A DNA stretch of 40,055 bases from a virus: positions 1 through 40,055 of the IMG/VR virus record IMGVR_UViG_3300005613_000162, one strand, 5' to 3'. Position numbers and translations under genes: made by a program. Positions within the stretch are counted from its first letter, which is position 1, and every line of letters begins with the position of its first letter. This document shows, piece by piece, positions 3,327-15,978 of the stretch. Under the pieces are notes generated by a model. It saw only the letters and a program-made list of their open reading frames with translations, searched no databases and was not told the DNA's origin.

Positions 3327-3369
3327 TCATAAGTTCAAATGTTATAATTATAATATATGAAGTTATGAA
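3327..3369. repeat. Long palindrome with TTATAATTATAA core, copy a
   Basis: Arms TTCATAAGTTCA (3327-3338) and TGAAGTTATGAA (3358-3369) match with one mismatch and flank a core TTATAATTATAA (3342-3353). The arms share the TAARTTCA element with the dispersed 29-bp palindrome, suggesting the same or a related binding protein. Confidence 0.7.
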
Positions 3370-3505
3370 TTACTTGCCGGTATGCTTTATGGTTGAAGGT
3401 GTGCTGTTAAATATGGCATTTAACCTACCCCACCCGTCCCCCAATGGCTTTTTAATATACACAATACCCTCTAACATAACCAGAACCTAAAATGAGTTTT
3501 GAAAT

Positions 3506-3783: not shown

Positions 3784-4284
3784 ATGGCTGTAGAAGAACA
3801 TTCGGAATGTACTAAGGGACAGTATCCTGATAAACTAACCAGTCGACATAGGGCGTTGATGAGATTGCAGGTCGCTGGTCTCCCATTGAAAGATGCAGCT
3901 AGGGATGCTGGATACACCCTCGCAAGGGCAAGTCTCATCGTGGGAAGCCCCTTGTATAAATTTGAGAAGAGTAAGATGGAAGAGGAACTTAGGAAGAGGT
4001 TTATAGATGCCGAGGGGAGTAAGATAACTGTTGACGCGGTTAGGAAGAGATTTAAGGATGAGGCTCTCAATTCCATTGATAAACTTGTCAAACTACGGGA
4101 TGGGGCACAGTCTGAAAGGGTGCAACAGATTAGTGCTATGGATATTTTAGATAGGTCGGGATATAAAGAACCTGAAAAGTTGGAAGTAGATGCAATCGTG
4201 GAAGTTGGAGAAGGATTAGCTAATGCCCTTAAGGAAGCGGTTGTTGCTATAAGGAGTAAGAATGGCTCAGCTGTTGAGAAATGA
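3784..4284 (+). CDS. terS: Probable terminase small subunit, 166 aa
   Basis: Small terminase subunits recognise phage DNA and load the packaging motor. Support is position directly before the large subunit, size, and an N-terminal helix-turn-helix-like segment (about residues 22-45: ALMRLQVAGLPLKDAARDAG, then YTLARAS), followed by helical, charged sequence. The ATG at 3784 is preferred because AGAGGTG lies before it; a longer frame from TTG at 3739 would begin inside the leader hairpin. It overlaps the large subunit by 23 bp. Confidence 0.7.
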   Translation: MAVEEHSECTKGQYPDKLTSRHRALMRLQVAGLPLKDAARDAGYTLARASLIVGSPLYKFEKSKMEEELRKRFIDAEGSKITVDAVRKRFKDEALNSIDKLVKLRDGAQSERVQQISAMDILDRSGYKEPEKLEVDAIVEVGEGLANALKEAVVAIRSKNGSAVEK

Positions 4285-5758
4285 AATAAATGTTGTTAGG
4301 GATTTCAGTATGGAAAACTTTTGGTTTTTCGTTCAATCATTGTTAGACCCGAAGTTTTACGATGCCATATTTCATAGGGGATTGTGTAATTTTTTTCAGA
4401 CATCTAAAAAAGACAAGTTAATTGTTTTGCCTAGAACATTTCTAAAGACCACAATAACATCCTTATACGCATTGTGGAGAACTACAAAAGACCCATCATT
4501 ACGGGTTTTAATAACATCCAACACATCTCCCAACGCTGAGAAAACAGTAAGGTCTATTAGGTCTATTGTGGAAAATAATAAGTTATATCAACTATTGTAT
4601 CCCGATAGAATACCTCACTTTAGTAGAGTTAGGTGGAGTGATAGATGTGCCTGTCTTCAACGGCCTGAAGATTTTCCTGAGGGGACATTTGAGGCTGTTG
4701 GTGTTGGGGCTAATATTATCAGGCGACATTATAATATGATAATTGAGGATGATACCGTTGCACCTAAGAAAGATGAGTTAACTGGGGAGGAAGCCATGCC
4801 GAGTAGAGACGACATAGAAAAGGCAGTAGGTTTTCATAAACTGACAATTCCCCTCTTGATTAACTTTGAGGAAGATGAGAGGATTGTGGTAGGAACGAGA
4901 TGGGCTAGTTATGACCTCATCAATCACGTTATGACTAATGAAAAATTTGACAACTTTAATCAACCCGCTATAAATAAGGAAGGCAAACCTCTCTACAAAC
5001 GTTTTTCCCTTGACACACTTGATAGTATTAGGATGGGTATGGGCACACATATGTTCCACTCTTTATATCTCAACCAACCACTCGCCAAGGAGTTTATGAG
5101 TTTCAATCCCGATTGGATAAGATATTTTACCGACTTACCAGAGGGAGAAGAGGGTGCTGGAACGATTAGTATTGACCCCGCCGATCCACCTACGGGGAAG
5201 AAGACCCAAAATAGTTGTGCCATTGTGGGGGCATTTCACACGAAGAGTGGGATGTATGTAGAAAGGTATAAGAAGGGTCATTATACGGAACAGCAAATAA
5301 TTAAAGAAGCGTTTGCGATGGCGGATTTGCTTGGTTATATTAAAATAAGAATTGAGGTGGATAGATATGCCAACTTACAATATGCAATGAAGGATGAGAT
5401 GGAGAGGTTGGGGAAGCATTATATTATTGATGCTGTCAAGACGAGAGGTAGAAAGAAGGAAGCGAGGATTATGGGATTAGCTCCTCTGTTTGAAGCGGGA
5501 GTTGTGTGGATTAAGAGAGGGATGAGGGAGCTAGAACAAGAGTTGTTTGAATTTCCCTACGGGGCAACGGATGATTTAATAGACGCATTAGCTTGGCAAT
5601 TACCATCCCACAGGACGATTAGATATATTAAAAAAGCTAAACCTAAAATGAAGAAGAGGTATAATGAGTTTAGTTTCGATCAGATTATGAGGAGCACGAA
5701 CCCTAGGAAGATGCGGTATCCTTTTCAAAAACAGTTGGGATTGAGTGTAATGCATTAG
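4262..5758 (+). CDS. terL: Terminase large subunit, 498 aa
   Basis: ATP-driven DNA packaging motor with a headful or site-specific nuclease. A Walker A-like segment, LPRTFLKTTI (about 56-65), lacks the usual glycine-rich loop, as in several phage terminases. Walker B is MIIEDD (about 159-164). The RNase H-like nuclease domain has SIDPAD (303-308), IEVDR (364-368) and a final acidic DDLIDA (437-442). The length is normal for the family. AAGGAG lies 5-6 nt before the ATG at 4262. The TAG stop and the following TAA come from the dispersed 29-bp palindrome at 5755-5783. Confidence 0.93.
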   Translation: MAQLLRNEINVVRDFSMENFWFFVQSLLDPKFYDAIFHRGLCNFFQTSKKDKLIVLPRTFLKTTITSLYALWRTTKDPSLRVLITSNTSPNAEKTVRSIRSIVENNKLYQLLYPDRIPHFSRVRWSDRCACLQRPEDFPEGTFEAVGVGANIIRRHYNMIIEDDTVAPKKDELTGEEAMPSRDDIEKAVGFHKLTIPLLINFEEDERIVVGTRWASYDLINHVMTNEKFDNFNQPAINKEGKPLYKRFSLDTLDSIRMGMGTHMFHSLYLNQPLAKEFMSFNPDWIRYFTDLPEGEEGAGTISIDPADPPTGKKTQNSCAIVGAFHTKSGMYVERYKKGHYTEQQIIKEAFAMADLLGYIKIRIEVDRYANLQYAMKDEMERLGKHYIIDAVKTRGRKKEARIMGLAPLFEAGVVWIKRGMRELEQELFEFPYGATDDLIDALAWQLPSHRTIRYIKKAKPKMKKRYNEFSFDQIMRSTNPRKMRYPFQKQLGLSVMH

Positions 5759-7133: not shown

Positions 7134-10052
7134 ATGGGGATAAAAATAGAAGACCCGGGATATGAGAGGATTACACTTCACCAGTTGAGTGATGTAACTA
7201 TCACTGCACCAGCTGATGGTGAGGTATTATCCTATGATCTAGTTAGTGGGGAATGGATAAATCAAACATATAGTGAGGCTGGGTTTGATGGTGTTTATCT
7301 TAGATTAGACGGCACTAATTCCATGACAGGGGATTTGGGAATAGGGATTACTGCCACTGAAAAACTCCACATAGCCAATACCGCTTCTACTGATGACTGT
7401 AAGGTTTTATTGGACACTTACTCTACTGGGCAGACTGACTATTCAAGATTAACGTTTAGAAAGTCCGACCACAATACCATAGGCACTCTTGCCCAAACTG
7501 ATGATAGCGATTATTTGGGCATGATTAGTTGGAAAGGTGTAGATAACACCACCGCTTGGGATGAAGGTGCACATATATACGCAATACAGCGTGGTGCGGC
7601 AGGAGCGTATATCCCTGCCAGTATCCACATGGAAACCTATTCCAATGCGGCGATTAATAGCAATCAATTAGTCTTATATCAAGATGGTAATGTAGGTATA
7701 GATATAGCTGTTCCTTTGGCGCAACTCCATGTGGTTAAAGCAGATACTCAACTCATCCTTGCATATGATACGACTAATAAAGTATCCTTTAAGACTGAGT
7801 CTGATGGTGATCTTACCCTTGATAGTAATAAAGCCAGTTATGATATTGACTTAACAGACGCTAATATAATCACTACAGGCAATATAGACCTCAACCCAGC
7901 CGTAGCGAGCGGTTTACCCAATGGAATTATAGATATTACCAATAGCACAGCGATAGGTGCGAATACCCACTGGACAGGTCTTAGAATAAGCGGGGAGAAT
8001 CTTGACCCCTCTGGAACTGACACAAGAATAAGAGGGATTGCTCTTAACTTTGAAGATACGGTGGTTGGTGATGCCGCTTATGAAATGGATTTAGATGCCC
8101 TTCGGATAGTATTACCTGCTACATCCACTCAAGACGCTATTAGGATTAAGGGTGGAAAAGTAAGATACCTATTTACCCCTACTACCAATGCTCTTGCACA
8201 TCATACCGCTTTTGATGTGGTTGTAGATGCTTCTGGGCAGGATGCCTCAAGCGAAACTCATGCGTTGGATGTTGCCCTTGCTAATGGTTTATCGGGGACG
8301 GTAGCCGCAGTAGGCACTCATACAGGTATAGACCCAATACACCAGCACATTGGAACGTTTACCGCTATTACCCTTGATGCCTTATACATAGAAGGAACAG
8401 GATATGCTTCATTTACAGATGAGAATATATGGGCTAATGATGATGACGCTCTTTGTGTAGGCTATGATACAGTATGGGATGAATTGGAGCTTACCTTTGA
8501 TACTGCTGCCACTAAGGATTGTTTCCTTACTTTCTGGTATTGGAAAGACCTCCCGACAGACGCTTGGGTGCAATTCTATCCTGAGGATGATACTGATGGA
8601 GGTAGACAGAATGGAACTATCAGGTGGGATGGCTCAGACCTTACTGACTGGCTGGATGCAGACCCCACAGGGCAAGGTGATGGTTATTGGATTAAGATAA
8701 GACGGAATAGGGTGTCAGACCCTGGCACAGTTAACCTTGCAAGTCATAAATATTTAGTAGCTACAGCTTATTATTGGGATAAGACTGGCAATATAAATGT
8801 CAACACTATTACTGCCGCGGGTGATGTCAAGATAAATTCAGGTTTACTCCACATAGAAAAGGACCAAGATGCCCTTACTGAAATACGTATAGACAATGAT
8901 ACCGCAGGTGATAATTATACTATGGGGTATACCATGTATGATGGGGCTGACAAGAAAGCCTCGTTAGAGAGGGATAATAATTTAGGATATCTTGTCCTTA
9001 ATAATACTGGTGGTTTGTTACAGTTAAAGACTACAACCTCGGGTGATATTCTCTTCTCCCCTGCGGGCCTTGCCTATATCGGTGACAATAAGAAGTTTGC
9101 CTTTGGTGGTGCTGCTGATACTGATTCTTATATCATGTGGGATAATGCCAATTCAGAACTTGATATATATTCCTCTGGTGATGTAGCTGTAACCGCTGCT
9201 AACCTTACCCTCTCTGGCGACCTTGCTGTTAATGGTGGAAGTATTACTACTACAGGAGATTTAACGTTAGACCCTGGTGGAAACAGTGTTTTAGCAGGAA
9301 CCACATTATTGTTTTCTACTGTTACTGCAAGAATAGGTGCTAATGAAGGAACAAACGATAATTTAATTTTAACTGCTAAAGGTACAGGAACGTTATATTT
9401 ACAACATGACGATGGAACTGGGGGTGTCAACTTTGGGAATGGTGCGCTGGGCGTAGTGGCAAGCATGAGTAATACTGGAGCTTTATCTCTCAACAGTAAT
9501 TTAACAATTAACAATGCATCTTATGCTCGGCTTTATTCTTCAGATGAAGCTGAATATGGTCAGTTACAAATGGGCGACCAAGATTTTACTATTTCAACTG
9601 GGGGGACGAATGATAGAAATATACTTTTAAACCCTGCTACAATGGTTAAGGTGAGTGGTGGTCTTAACTTAGCAGATAACATACAACTTATGTTTGGAAC
9701 CGATGAAGCGGCGGATAGCTATATCACTTTTGATACAACTGACCTTGAACTACTATCCTCAGCAGCAATAAAATTAACTACCACAACGGGTGTAACAACG
9801 AATGGGAATATTATCGCAGATGGCTATATTACCTGTGGTGTTGGAGACTCTACCTTTTCAGTTGCAGACCATGGAGCTAAAACCTGTATAATTCTTGAGC
9901 AGGAAGATGTGAGTGAAGGGTGTATAGATTTTGTAAGCACTGGGGCTATTGATAGGGGAGCGGTGGCGACATCAACAAGTAACTCAGCAGCGAGTGTGAG
10001 AGTGGAGTTAAATGGGACTAAATACATAGTTCCATTATTTACAGATGCATAA
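7134..10052 (+). CDS. Large fibre-like or head-fibre protein, 972 aa
   Basis: A long beta-rich protein of repeated Gly/Asn/Thr/Asp patches typical of trimeric phage fibres. A recurring module appears at about 665-700 (DSYIMWDNANSELDIYSSGD, then VAVTAANLTL) and 850-895 (DSYITFDTTDLELLSSAAIK). The C-terminal 75 residues (after CGVGDSTFSVADHG) look like a capping domain found at the end of many fibre-like proteins. A middle segment (about 420-545) resembles a beta-sandwich insertion. It lies between terminase and portal rather than with the tail genes, so it may be a head fibre. AAGGTG lies upstream of the ATG. Confidence 0.8.
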   Translation: MGIKIEDPGYERITLHQLSDVTITAPADGEVLSYDLVSGEWINQTYSEAGFDGVYLRLDGTNSMTGDLGIGITATEKLHIANTASTDDCKVLLDTYSTGQTDYSRLTFRKSDHNTIGTLAQTDDSDYLGMISWKGVDNTTAWDEGAHIYAIQRGAAGAYIPASIHMETYSNAAINSNQLVLYQDGNVGIDIAVPLAQLHVVKADTQLILAYDTTNKVSFKTESDGDLTLDSNKASYDIDLTDANIITTGNIDLNPAVASGLPNGIIDITNSTAIGANTHWTGLRISGENLDPSGTDTRIRGIALNFEDTVVGDAAYEMDLDALRIVLPATSTQDAIRIKGGKVRYLFTPTTNALAHHTAFDVVVDASGQDASSETHALDVALANGLSGTVAAVGTHTGIDPIHQHIGTFTAITLDALYIEGTGYASFTDENIWANDDDALCVGYDTVWDELELTFDTAATKDCFLTFWYWKDLPTDAWVQFYPEDDTDGGRQNGTIRWDGSDLTDWLDADPTGQGDGYWIKIRRNRVSDPGTVNLASHKYLVATAYYWDKTGNINVNTITAAGDVKINSGLLHIEKDQDALTEIRIDNDTAGDNYTMGYTMYDGADKKASLERDNNLGYLVLNNTGGLLQLKTTTSGDILFSPAGLAYIGDNKKFAFGGAADTDSYIMWDNANSELDIYSSGDVAVTAANLTLSGDLAVNGGSITTTGDLTLDPGGNSVLAGTTLLFSTVTARIGANEGTNDNLILTAKGTGTLYLQHDDGTGGVNFGNGALGVVASMSNTGALSLNSNLTINNASYARLYSSDEAEYGQLQMGDQDFTISTGGTNDRNILLNPATMVKVSGGLNLADNIQLMFGTDEAADSYITFDTTDLELLSSAAIKLTTTTGVTTNGNIIADGYITCGVGDSTFSVADHGAKTCIILEQEDVSEGCIDFVSTGAIDRGAVATSTSNSAASVRVELNGTKYIVPLFTDA

Positions 10053-11071: not shown

Positions 11072-11245
11072 ATGTTTGAGAAAGAGATAAAGAAGTTTTT
11101 ATTGGATACTAAAAATACTTGCCATTACAAACAGGCATTTATTCCAAAAGGTTGGACATGTGTTCATATTGACACGGCGTCTAAAGATTTGAATGAGATA
11201 CTCAACATGAAATATAGGAAGGTAAATAAAAATGGCAAAGCATGA
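11072..11245 (+). CDS. Small hypothetical protein upstream of portal, 57 aa
   Basis: Begins MFEKEIKKFLLDTKNTCHYK and continues QAFIPKGWTCVHIDTASKDL. It fills the gap between the palindrome and the portal start and overlaps the portal ATG by 14 bp. The ribosome site is weak (AGGA very close to the ATG). The patterned sequence and exact fit to the gap support it moderately. Confidence 0.5.
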   Translation: MFEKEIKKFLLDTKNTCHYKQAFIPKGWTCVHIDTASKDLNEILNMKYRKVNKNGKA

Positions 11246-12977
11246 CATTGATAAGTGGAGAGATAGGATAGATGCGGGAATAAGATATAAGGAAAAGTTC
11301 GGGAACTCCAAGAATTGGAGCACCTATAAGGACTATTATAGAGGTAAATTTCCTGGCTATACCTCCTCCCTAGACAGTGGTGGGGTGTTACCCTTCAATT
11401 TAGTGTATGCTATGAAGAGCACCTTAATACCTAATGTGTATTTTAGAAATCCATATATGACAGTTAGTCCTAGATATAAACCAAATATGGAGATACATGC
11501 CAAGGTTGTTGAGGCGGTTGATAATTGGCTAATTCAGGAACTTGCTATTAAGAAGGCTATGAAACATTCGGCTGGTAGTGCTTATTTTACTAATAAGGGG
11601 TTTATTAAGGTGGGTTATGATAGTGAGTTTGGATTTGCTCCCAATAAAGTTCAATCAGACCTCGGATTTAATGATACAACATTTACATCTTTTAGTAAGA
11701 AAGGGGAGCAAATTGAATATAACACCAACATCAAACCCGGTATGCCTTGGGCTATATCTGTTCCGTCAGAAAACATCATAGTGCCTTTCGGTTTGTATGA
11801 CTTTGATGACTGCCCTTGGATTGATCATGTTGTGATTAGACCACTTGAGGATGTAAAGGCAGATACCAAATACACCAACACCAAAGATTTGTCAGGAACC
11901 CATATTGAAACTCTCAAGAAAGACCCACTTAAGGCGCAGTTTTATAGTGAATTGGAGAAGGATGCAGAGTATGTTGAGTTGCATGAGATAAGGGATTTGA
12001 GGAGTGGGCAGATTATGGTAATGGTTATGGGTCATCCTAAGTGGTTGAGGGGACCGGAAAAGGATGTGTTGCAGTTGGAGGGTTTACCCTTTGTGGATGT
12101 TGGGTTTAATGATGACACCGAAATATTCTGGGGGCCGAGTGATGTTCAGATAATGGAACCACAGGTTCTTGAAATGAATGAGGCGAGAACCCAGGCCATG
12201 TTACATAGGAGAGTTGCATTACTTAAGTTTATGTATGAAGATGGGAGTATAGAACCCGCTGAGTTGGATAAGATGCTTAGTGAGAATGTGGGACCGGCTG
12301 TCAAAACCAAGGGTAAGCCGGGTGAGGTAATATCAATTCTCCAACCTAAGATACCCCTAGATTTAGTGAGTTGGACAGACCTCATCAGGAGTGATGTTAG
12401 AGAGTTGTTGGGGCAGGGTAGACATCAAATGGGGGAAACATCTAGGAGTGCGAGAACCACGGCAACGGAGGCTAGTATAGTTCAGATGGCACACGACTTG
12501 AGGATGGATGAGAGAAGAGATATGTTGGCTGACAGTCTTGTTAAGGTAATGAGGAAGCTTAATCAAATTGTATTCAAATTCTGGAGTGCTAAACGGGTTG
12601 TGCAGGTTGTTGGGTATGATGGAGCGAGGTATTGGATTGAATATACCAATGAGGGTATCAGAGGGGAGTATAATTTGACAGTTGATGTGGAGAGTATGAC
12701 CCCAACTACTAAGGCTCTTAAGAGACGGGATTTGGTGCAGCTAATTCAAGCCCTAGGTAAAAATCCTCGGGTTAATATAGATTATTTGTTGAAAGCCCTT
12801 TTGAGGGAATTTCCTTATATTGATGCTATGAAAGTATTACCAGAGGCTCCCGAAACAATGGGTGGTAAACCTATGAGTGTTGACCAGTTTGCTGGACAAC
12901 AACAGAAATTACTAGCCAGTCCTGAAATGCTTGGTGCGAGAACGAGGAAAAATGCTAGTATGGTTGGAGGGGCATAA
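11232..12977 (+). CDS. Portal protein, 581 aa
   Basis: Forms the dodecameric ring at one capsid vertex through which DNA enters and leaves. Recognised by length, position between terminase and scaffold/capsid, and typical portal features: an N-terminal region with YKDYYRGKFPGYTSS, the segment FWGPSDVQIMEPQVLEMNEA (start of the long stem helices) followed by RTQAMLHRR, and a helical region around TSRSARTTATEASIVQMAHD. The C-terminal part has AGQQQKLLASPEMLG. AGGAAGG precedes the ATG. The stop overlaps the next start. Confidence 0.85.
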   Translation: MAKHDIDKWRDRIDAGIRYKEKFGNSKNWSTYKDYYRGKFPGYTSSLDSGGVLPFNLVYAMKSTLIPNVYFRNPYMTVSPRYKPNMEIHAKVVEAVDNWLIQELAIKKAMKHSAGSAYFTNKGFIKVGYDSEFGFAPNKVQSDLGFNDTTFTSFSKKGEQIEYNTNIKPGMPWAISVPSENIIVPFGLYDFDDCPWIDHVVIRPLEDVKADTKYTNTKDLSGTHIETLKKDPLKAQFYSELEKDAEYVELHEIRDLRSGQIMVMVMGHPKWLRGPEKDVLQLEGLPFVDVGFNDDTEIFWGPSDVQIMEPQVLEMNEARTQAMLHRRVALLKFMYEDGSIEPAELDKMLSENVGPAVKTKGKPGEVISILQPKIPLDLVSWTDLIRSDVRELLGQGRHQMGETSRSARTTATEASIVQMAHDLRMDERRDMLADSLVKVMRKLNQIVFKFWSAKRVVQVVGYDGARYWIEYTNEGIRGEYNLTVDVESMTPTTKALKRRDLVQLIQALGKNPRVNIDYLLKALLREFPYIDAMKVLPEAPETMGGKPMSVDQFAGQQQKLLASPEMLGARTRKNASMVGGA

Positions 12978-14379: not shown

Positions 14380-14907
14380 ATGGCAGCTCCGACTTATACG
14401 GAAACCCTAAATGCTATGTATGCAACTACATGGCAGTTGAGGCTTGCCAAGATTATAGATAACATCTATACCGCTACTCCCTTCTTCTATCTTATGAAGA
14501 AAAAAGGTAGAATGGATACACAATCAGGTGGTAGGTGGATTGAGCATGTTCTTAACTACGGGAAGAATGAAACAACCAAATTCATCGGGAAAGGTGAGTC
14601 TGTATCACTGGAAGCTACAGATACCATCACCACAACCCACTGGGATTGGAAGTATCTAACTGGTCACATTATTAGGTATTTTGCTGATTTCCAGAAGAAC
14701 AGAGGTAAGGCAGCGTTAATTAAGAAGGTTAATGCAGATATTGACAACCTTCAAAATAGCTTAATTGACGCGACTGAAACAGCCCTGTTTGGTGATGGAA
14801 CTGGTGATGATAACAAGGCGTTTGATGGATTGGACAACATTGTGGCTGAAGCACCCGCAACGGGAACGGTAGCTAATCTAAATAGGGCTACATATTCTTG
14901 GTGGCGT
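14380..14907 (+). CDS. Major capsid protein, exon 1 (residues 1-176)
   Basis: The coat protein gene is split by a group I intron. Exon 1 begins MAAPTYTETLNAMYATTWQL and ends at CGT (Arg176) in ...YSWWR. The conserved opening (a long helix, then GGRWIEHVLNYGKNETTKF) matches coat proteins that begin with TETLNA and are probably of HK97 fold; that fold is inferred. The splice point is fixed by P1: GGCGT (14903-14907) pairs with GCGCC (14917-14921), placing a U-G wobble at the junction. Without splicing, the frame runs on to a stop at 14988. The spliced protein is 328 aa. Confidence 0.9.
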
Positions 14908-15519
14908 AAACTTGTTGCGCCCCTAAAATCATCACTTATAAGGGGAAACCTGAGATGGCAATCCCTTGCAAGCAGTGGAGTAATTTAATGAAGCAGCAAA
15001 AGTGTTTTTTATACGCATATGCAGCTGGTTTGGTTGACGGAGAAGGATGCATTATGATAGTAAAATGTAAGTCTTGTCTATCTAGACCAAAACCGTGTAA
15101 TTACTTCTACTCTAAATTAGTTGTTGGAATGTTAGACAGAGAAGGTATTGACGTTCTACAGGGCTTGTTTGGGGGTAGAATAAATAGTTATATGTGGGGA
15201 GAGAAGATGGGTTACTATTGGGTTATTCAGGCTAATAAAGCATTAGAACCCCTCAAGAAACTCTACCCATTTTTGCGTGTAAAAAAGGCGCAAGCTGAAG
15301 TCGCTATAGCTCTTCAAACTCGTGTTAGTAACCATTTCTCTCGCAGAACAATTACTCCTGAGGAGTTGAAAGTGAGAGAACATTATTTCAATAAAATAAA
15401 AGAGCTACGCAAATCTACTCCACGTGCAGCAGTAGAGACTAAGCGTGATGACTTCTCTCTCAGAAGAGAAGAAGCGATAGTCCAACTCTATGAGAAACCA
15501 ATCATAGAAAGAGTTAACG
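14908..15519 (+). mobile_element. Group I intron (612 nt) in the major capsid gene
   Basis: Self-splicing intron; all key helices can be read. P1: GGCGT/GCGCC with terminal U-G. P10: CTTGTT (14911-14916) with AACAAG (15520-15525), 6 bp, which fixes the 3' site after G15519. P3: TCATCAC (14929-14935) with GTGATGA (15445-15451). P4: AAGGG (14940-14944) with CCCTT (14963-14967), with GGCAATCCC as in phage td-type introns. P7: GACTA (15437-15441) with TAGTC (15478-15482). P8: CTTCTCT (15452-15458) with AGAGAAG (15465-15471). P9: AACTCT (15484-15489) with AGAGTT (15510-15515). The splice phase is 0 on both sides. The P4-P5 sequence style suggests subgroup IA, an inference. Confidence 0.93.
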
Positions 15520-15530
15520 AACAAGTATAA
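14988..15530 (+). CDS. Intron-encoded LAGLIDADG-type homing endonuclease, 180 aa
   Basis: Homing endonucleases cut intronless copies of the host gene so that the intron is copied in. A single LAGLIDADG motif, YAAGLVDGEGC (about residues 11-21), implies a homodimer. The ATG at 14988 follows GTGGAG; an in-frame ATG at 14955 lies inside the P4-P5 core and is less likely. The C-terminal third (AAVETKRDDFSLRREEAIVQ and beyond) is encoded by P7, P3, P8 and P9 of the ribozyme. The stop TAA (15528-15530) lies 11 nt into exon 2, so ribozyme, protein and capsid sequences are interlocked. Confidence 0.88.
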   Translation: MKQQKCFLYAYAAGLVDGEGCIMIVKCKSCLSRPKPCNYFYSKLVVGMLDREGIDVLQGLFGGRINSYMWGEKMGYYWVIQANKALEPLKKLYPFLRVKKAQAEVAIALQTRVSNHFSRRTITPEELKVREHYFNKIKELRKSTPRAAVETKRDDFSLRREEAIVQLYEKPIIERVNEQV

Positions 15531-15978
15531 AGACATGAGTGGTGAAGCAGCGTCTGTATACCTTACCAAGCGTATGAGAACTATGTTCAATGATTGCGGC
15601 GCCGGTGGTGAAGGTATTAGTAGATTTCCAGATATTATCATATGTGCTCAAGATACATATGAGTTGTATGATGAGGAGTGTTTGGAAATTGGTAGAATTC
15701 TTATGGGTGATAAGAAGATGGCTGACCTTGGATTTGGTGATTTAGCCTATAAGGGGAGACCAATGACTTGGTCACCTAGCTGTAAAGATGAGTCAATGTA
15801 TTTCCTAAATACGGCATTTTTGAAGTGGATGGTTGACCCTATTGAAAACTTCACCCTAGGTAGCTGGTTGCCAATTATTGACCAACCTAGAGATGTTGTA
15901 GCCCACACGATGACAGTTGGTAACTTAGTAACTAGTAATTGTAAGAGACAGGGTGTTATTTTCAACATCGCTGAATAG
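15520..15978 (+). CDS. Major capsid protein, exon 2 (residues 177-328)
   Basis: Continues the coat protein in phase from AAC (Asn177): NKYKDMSGEAASVYLTKRMR. It contains the P-domain/A-domain type sequence PDIIICAQDTYELYDEECLE and ends GVIFNIAE. The exon start is fixed by P10 pairing and by the intron's terminal G at 15519. An ATG at 15535 has no ribosome site, so separate translation of this half is unlikely. The 3' side is followed by a 10-bp stem-loop before the next gene. Confidence 0.9.
   Translation, partial: NKYKDMSGEAASVYLTKRMRTMFNDCGAGGEGISRFPDIIICAQDTYELYDEECLEIGRILMGDKKMADLGFGDLAYKGRPMTWSPSCKDESMYFLNTAFLKWMVDPIENFTLGSWLPIIDQPRDVVAHTMTVGNLVTSNCKRQGVIFNIAE

Follow-up and report, generated by a model that had tools for sequence, protein, structure and literature searches.

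Group I introns of the T4 type lie mainly in nucleotide-metabolism genes and carry GIY-YIG or HNH endonucleases. Capsid genes can also be hosts: the major capsid gene of mycobacteriophage LittleE has empty-site relatives and contains a group I-type intron, which carries an I-CreI-like LAGLIDADG gene and was proven to splice by RT-PCR and N-terminal protein sequencing (PMC3706429). The same paper refers to lactococcal phage Tuc2009 as another carrier of a capsid intron (PMC3706429). In the Delta and Zeta crAss-like phages, core genes, that for the major capsid protein (MCP) among them, contain group I introns, one MCP gene being in five fragments; introns riddle many genes in these phages, and a capsid-specific lineage was not described there (PMC7886860). 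The intron analyzed here is a further case of these already known capsid-gene group I introns. The preliminary description of the locus had presented a group I intron in a capsid gene as noteworthy; that identification holds, although such a host gene is not unprecedented. What appears to be new is its subfamily, whose LAGLIDADG-bearing members recur in MCP genes of varied capsid families; a capsid-specific intron lineage was not found in the literature searched, which lacked most subscription journals.

The window, meaning the whole stretch of DNA analyzed, is a virus record of 40,055 bases; in its head-gene block, PHROG search found, among others, genes for the large terminase subunit (4262-5758) and the portal protein (11232-12977). 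The MCP gene is divided into exon 1 (14380-14907, residues 1-176) and exon 2 (15520-15978, residues 177-328 plus stop) by a 612-nt group I intron at 14908-15519, between codons 176 and 177; these and all window features described below are on the plus strand. Exon joining, empty-site alignment, helices, and a covariance model delimit the intron, with the boundaries originally proposed. The exons join in phase, with the junction sequence GGTGGCGT|AACAAGTAT, to give the predicted 328-aa coat protein, which has no internal stops and is a 'major head protein' by its match to phrog_9953 (E 9e-46). Intronless MCP relatives in IMG/VR (L132, 72% identity; L001, 67-68%; L002, 64%; L133, 62%) align with the joined exons gap-free over the WWR|NKYKD junction, WWRN being unbroken in the aligned ones, and the exons are thus continuous in the empty allele, as is expected for a group I intron. 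If left unspliced, the exon 1 frame runs into the intron and stops at 14986-14988, giving a 202-aa product. An intein was rejected because the insertion is out of frame with the host protein. In none of 80 further relatives listed does an insertion divide the capsid match, and the intron, used as a DNA query, matched none of the named phages searched. We are highly confident that the MCP gene is interrupted at codon 176/177 by a mobile, self-splicing group I intron whose P6 loop holds a LAGLIDADG homing endonuclease gene (HEG), and which belongs to a compact, Rfam-missed subfamily with HEG-bearing members found almost exclusively in MCP genes, that is, a capsid-gene homing lineage.

The RNA contains every helix listed in the preliminary description (P1 with its U-G pair, P3, P4, P7, P8, P9, and P10), as judged by sequence reading and shuffle tests. 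In P1, the exon strand GGCGU (14903-14907), ending in the 5′ splice-site U, U14907, pairs with the guide strand GCGCC (14917-14921), in which G14917 forms the U.G pair. The neighboring guide strand ACUUGUU (14910-14916) forms a 7-bp P10 with AACAAGU of exon 2 (15520-15526), and the P1 plus P10 arrangement was matched in 1 of 100,000 shuffles of the intron 5′ end. P3 (UCAUCAC, 14929-14935; GUGAUGA, 15445-15451) was assigned by pairing, profile, and covariation, whereas P4 (AAGGGG, 14940-14945; UCCCUU, 14962-14967) and the P8 hairpin (15452-15471) were assigned by pairing, fold, and covariance model, and the P5 mini-hairpin CC-UGAGAU-GG (14949-14958) by fold and covariance model. The P6/P6a 5′ strand UUGC-AA-GCA (14966-14974; fold and covariance model) pairs with UGCAGCAG (15425-15432; pairing and covariance model), and P6b joins GUGGAGUA (14975-14982), which holds the GGAG Shine-Dalgarno sequence (14977-14980) of the endonuclease open reading frame (ORF), to UACUCCAC (15416-15423), within that ORF. 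P7 pairs GACUA (15437-15441; pairing, profile, and covariance model) with UAGUC (15478-15482), the guanosine site, preceded by J8/7 AAGCGA. The P9 hairpin (15484-15515; pairing and fold) is followed by the terminal guanosine at 15519, placed by exon joining. U14907.G14917 in P1, G15519 at the 3′ end, a P3-P8 core with P7, and P10 are together the features of a group I intron; the core order P3-P4-P5-P6-P7-P8-P9, the P1 U.G pair, and P10 are shared with T4 td, nrdB, and nrdD and with other IA introns (RF00028).

With the ORF loop trimmed, P1, P3, P4, P5, P6, P8, and P9 appear unprompted in the minimum-energy fold, P7 being missing because it forms a pseudoknot with P3, and the trimmed core is more stable than expected (z = -3.5; 0 of 200 shuffles equally stable). 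A 3′-half profile, built on the P7/J7-3 and J8/7-P7′ blocks of 26 short group I introns from other viral contigs and scoring P3 by pairing alone, gave 48.8 for the intron against a maximum of 15.4 over 1000 dinucleotide shuffles; no other place in the window scored. It is very unlikely that the element descends from a group I intron but has lost splicing, in a phage with a truncated coat protein or in a defective genome record. Splicing is read here from sequence and the exon 1 read-through would be a 202-aa protein, which such decay would accommodate; however, all catalytic helices are intact, including P7, the P1 U.G pair, and P10, both exons are open and conserved up to their ends relative to the intronless relatives, the endonuclease ORF is open, and the neighboring terminase and portal head genes are present.

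The bulk of the intron is a 180-aa ORF in the P6 loop (14988-15530), missing from the text of the preliminary description, that encodes a single-motif LAGLIDADG homing endonuclease (motif YAAGLVDGEG). Its ATG (14988) lies 7 nt past the GGAG, it has no in-frame stops within the intron, and its TAA (15528-15530) is inside exon 2; residues from about 143 onward (the last ∼35 codons) are encoded by P6′, P7, P3′, P8, and P9. A13, G14, D17, G18, E19, and G20 are invariant across 34 endonuclease relatives, so that each chain has one LAGLIDADG motif with its catalytic acidic residue. PF00961 scored the product at 14.9 bits, below the curated cut-off of 23.1, but matched 29 of the 34 relatives at E<=0.01, and an alignment profile of the 34 relatives matched I-MsoI and I-CreI (1e-27 to 1e-12). 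An AlphaFold model (pLDDT 87; 56-58 in the core-encoded tail) had I-CvuI, I-CreI, and I-MsoI as its top Foldseek neighbors (prob 1.00), and model and neighbors together show the alpha-beta-beta-alpha-beta-beta-alpha LAGLIDADG fold. The PHROG label 'HNH endonuclease' (phrog_5046) for this ORF was therefore set aside, as the profile, PF00961, and Foldseek show LAGLIDADG. P0002 alone found nothing in IMG/VR, whereas the alignment-based search did give relatives. The window endonuclease resembles I-CreI, I-MsoI, and I-CvuI, which are encoded by organellar rRNA introns, in length and single-motif fold, but it is only ∼20% identical to them, resides in a phage capsid gene rather than an rRNA gene, and differs from them in that the ribozyme core encodes its C-terminal tail.

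Free-standing LAGLIDADG genes also occur right beside MCP genes, upstream or downstream, at L133:1797-2486 and L134:3525-3953, where the MCPs are 62% and 35% identical to that of the window, and a free-standing endonuclease relative adjoins the MCP gene in Stenotrophomonas phage StenR_269. These MCP-adjacent nucleases may be sources of the intronic ones. They also lend some plausibility to a plain HEG insertion, in which a free-standing nuclease gene would disrupt the MCP gene and two capsid fragments would be translated separately, with splicing absent. Such an insertion predicts neither the rejoining of the exons at the exact residue where the intronless relatives go on nor a group I core, complete and with both P1 and P10, around the ORF; both are found, and we regard this explanation as extremely improbable. 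As a separate observation, the MCP frame of L134 is broken near its end (3340-3400) at a short tandem duplication, either a natural frameshift or an assembly error.

For the group I intron with its P6-loop endonuclease, we infer splicing, cleavage, and regulation from the sequence. The intron would fold within the mRNA, an external guanosine would attack after U14907, and exon 1 would then attack after G15519, leaving an intact coat-protein mRNA. Unspliced RNA would instead be translated from GGAG/ATG (14977-14990) into an I-CreI-like homodimeric nuclease, which is predicted to cleave intronless MCP genes in co-infecting phages, with repair of the cut gene copying the intron in (homing); a LAGLIDADG HEG would thus explain the presence of the intron at this site. 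Because P6b pairs the Shine-Dalgarno sequence and ribosomes translating the ORF cross P7-P9, a single transcript is expected either to splice or to yield nuclease. Splicing and endonuclease translation should be mutually exclusive since the ORF crosses P7-P9 and stops in exon 2. The nuclease is probably made solely from unspliced RNA, because the excised intron would contain no ORF stop, the Shine-Dalgarno sequence is in a P6b strand, and ribosomes would unfold the core.

The covariance-model evidence for group I identity, anticipated in the preliminary description, came out divided. Rfam RF00028 had no match at E<=10 to the window, to the 3′ half, or in a genome-scale search, although it does detect several short comparator introns as well as T4 nrdD, whereas a subfamily model matched both core halves. 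The long HEG insert was rejected as the cause of this silence: HEG-less relative L299 gave no match to RF00028 in E-value mode, and none of the signature introns at 12 HEG-less loci matched. Because a HEG-less member is unmatched too, the silence is attributable to the subfamily itself. RF00028 also misses L389, L390, L304, and other tested signature introns besides L299, and is therefore likely to undercount phage group I introns.

Subfamily members were collected by scanning IMG/VR with the pattern GAGACTAAGN{20,50}GCGATAGTCC, which corresponds to the P7 5′/J7-3 and J8/7-P7′ elements of the window and was derived from two introns, those of the window and L212, both in MCP genes; it matched at least 119 stretches. 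Among the matches listed, the P3 5′ strand could be placed in the same context at 112 of 122 places. RNAalifold on 22 HEG-less members recovered P3, P4, P5, P6, and P8, and 21 of the 23 pairs showed compensatory changes. The subfamily covariance model (R1) was built from these 22 other introns. R1 matched the window at 15357-15491 (36.3 bits, E 6e-8) and at 14942-15002 (20 bits, E 0.0013), the next best match having E 6.6; the two matches are the core halves, with the ORF insert between them. The 3′-half match is partly circular because the scan pattern chose the training set, but the 5′-half match is not. In the 17 HEG-bearing members listed, where P3 was located by sequence motif alone, P3 paired at 6-7 of 7 positions in all 17, with 97.5% of cells paired and 43 double changes, a level reached in 0 of 500 shuffles, while slid versions gave 44-59%. 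A motif hunt for the intron core at 80 endonuclease loci was confident only for L212 and L213.

R1 also sets the locus apart from the T4 and LittleE introns. It matches T4 nrdD weakly (19 bits), and T4 nrdD is detected by RF00028 whereas the subfamily of the window is not. The LittleE intron resembles that of the window in being a group I-type intron in a major capsid gene with an I-CreI-like ORF and empty-site relatives, but its capsid family is HK97-like and differs from that of the window. LittleE is considered a separate case because its endonuclease, 27% identical, is on the opposite strand, downstream of the core, and R1 had no match to its intron at E<=0.1.

Capsid genes predominate among the relatives of the endonuclease as well. 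Its nearest relatives by protein, L212, L213 (the same as L340), L214, and L216, all split or abut head-protein genes, assigned to phrog_9953, 1328, 9953, and 1357, respectively. At L212:2090-4551, two introns of this type interrupt a distant MCP gene (phrog_9953), and in each of them a separate LAGLIDADG ORF extends into P7. With 3′ exons picked by a mechanical rule, 15 of the 17 non-redundant LAGLIDADG-bearing introns among the matches listed had an MCP 3′ exon, spanning five capsid families: phrog_9953 (window, L212, L313, and more weakly L344 and L371), phrog_267 (L392, L394, L404, L357, L365, and L372), phrog_1357 (L396, and L347 by similarity to L396), phrog_1328 (L340), and phrog_334 (L355). 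Pfam capsid families were found for several of these exons. The exceptions were L300, with no match, and L319 (QueC); at L319:8380-9277 the LAGLIDADG-bearing intron lies in a queuosine-synthesis (QueC-like) gene. Nearly all family members are uncultivated.

For comparison, another phage group I type, defined by the pattern AACGACTATCCN{60,90}GATATAGTCT, was in MCP genes in 3 of 84 cases, scored by similarity to an MCP set and for most members with a search less sensitive than PHROG; its targets were ribonucleotide reductase, DNA polymerase, terminase, and portal genes. The difference between LAGLIDADG-bearing and control introns gave a Fisher value of 3e-13 among the matches listed, the 17 not being independent. 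They represent 13 endonuclease lineages at <40% identity, 11 of which are in MCP genes among the matches listed.

The capsid bias may nonetheless be overstated, because it comes from the matches listed in one scan, with a pattern taken from two MCP introns. At the extreme, the intron would be real and the capsid enrichment of its family an ascertainment artifact, the MCP-derived pattern recovering close kin, and five of the 17 do belong to a single endonuclease cluster within one capsid family. We consider this rather unlikely: the pattern contains RNA only, yet reached 13 divergent endonuclease lineages and five capsid families; MCP genes are also split or adjoined by the nearest endonuclease relatives, which were identified independently of the RNA pattern; and subfamily members without LAGLIDADG are less MCP-biased, at 16 of 45 among the matches listed. 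On balance, we slightly favor a broader reading in which a distinct compact phage group I lineage, invisible to the general Rfam model, has LAGLIDADG enzymes that home specifically into MCP genes. It would have entered five or more capsid families, using several insertion sites and sometimes occurring twice per gene, with free-standing MCP-adjacent kin as possible sources and with nuclease synthesis and splicing competing on the same transcript.

The MCP gene is a target common to nearly all tailed phages, and the lineage is a test case for homing endonucleases that choose a gene rather than a site. It is likewise a test case for intron endonucleases as weapons between co-infecting phages, a role proposed for phage PhiPA3 (PMC11620839). 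Few phage genes are expressed as heavily as those for capsids, and introns that prefer them would therefore need very efficient splicing. Annotation pipelines report broken capsid genes at such introns, and RF00028 raises no flag.

Several further group I introns were encountered. A first P4-P6 motif scan returned numerous introns of tRNA genes, which served only as comparators for the core, and HEG-less short group I introns with a similar core were found in or beside tRNA genes at L029, L064, L109, L117, L021, L052, and other loci. The subfamily signature was present at 18 loci in bacterial and archaeal genomes, some tRNA-intron-like and two of them capsid fragments, with no LAGLIDADG at any of the 18. 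In the MCP region of L313, a second, RF00028-positive group I intron (7908-8169) lies ∼0.6 kb upstream of the LAGLIDADG-bearing intron, and L355 and L371 have two R1 matches each.
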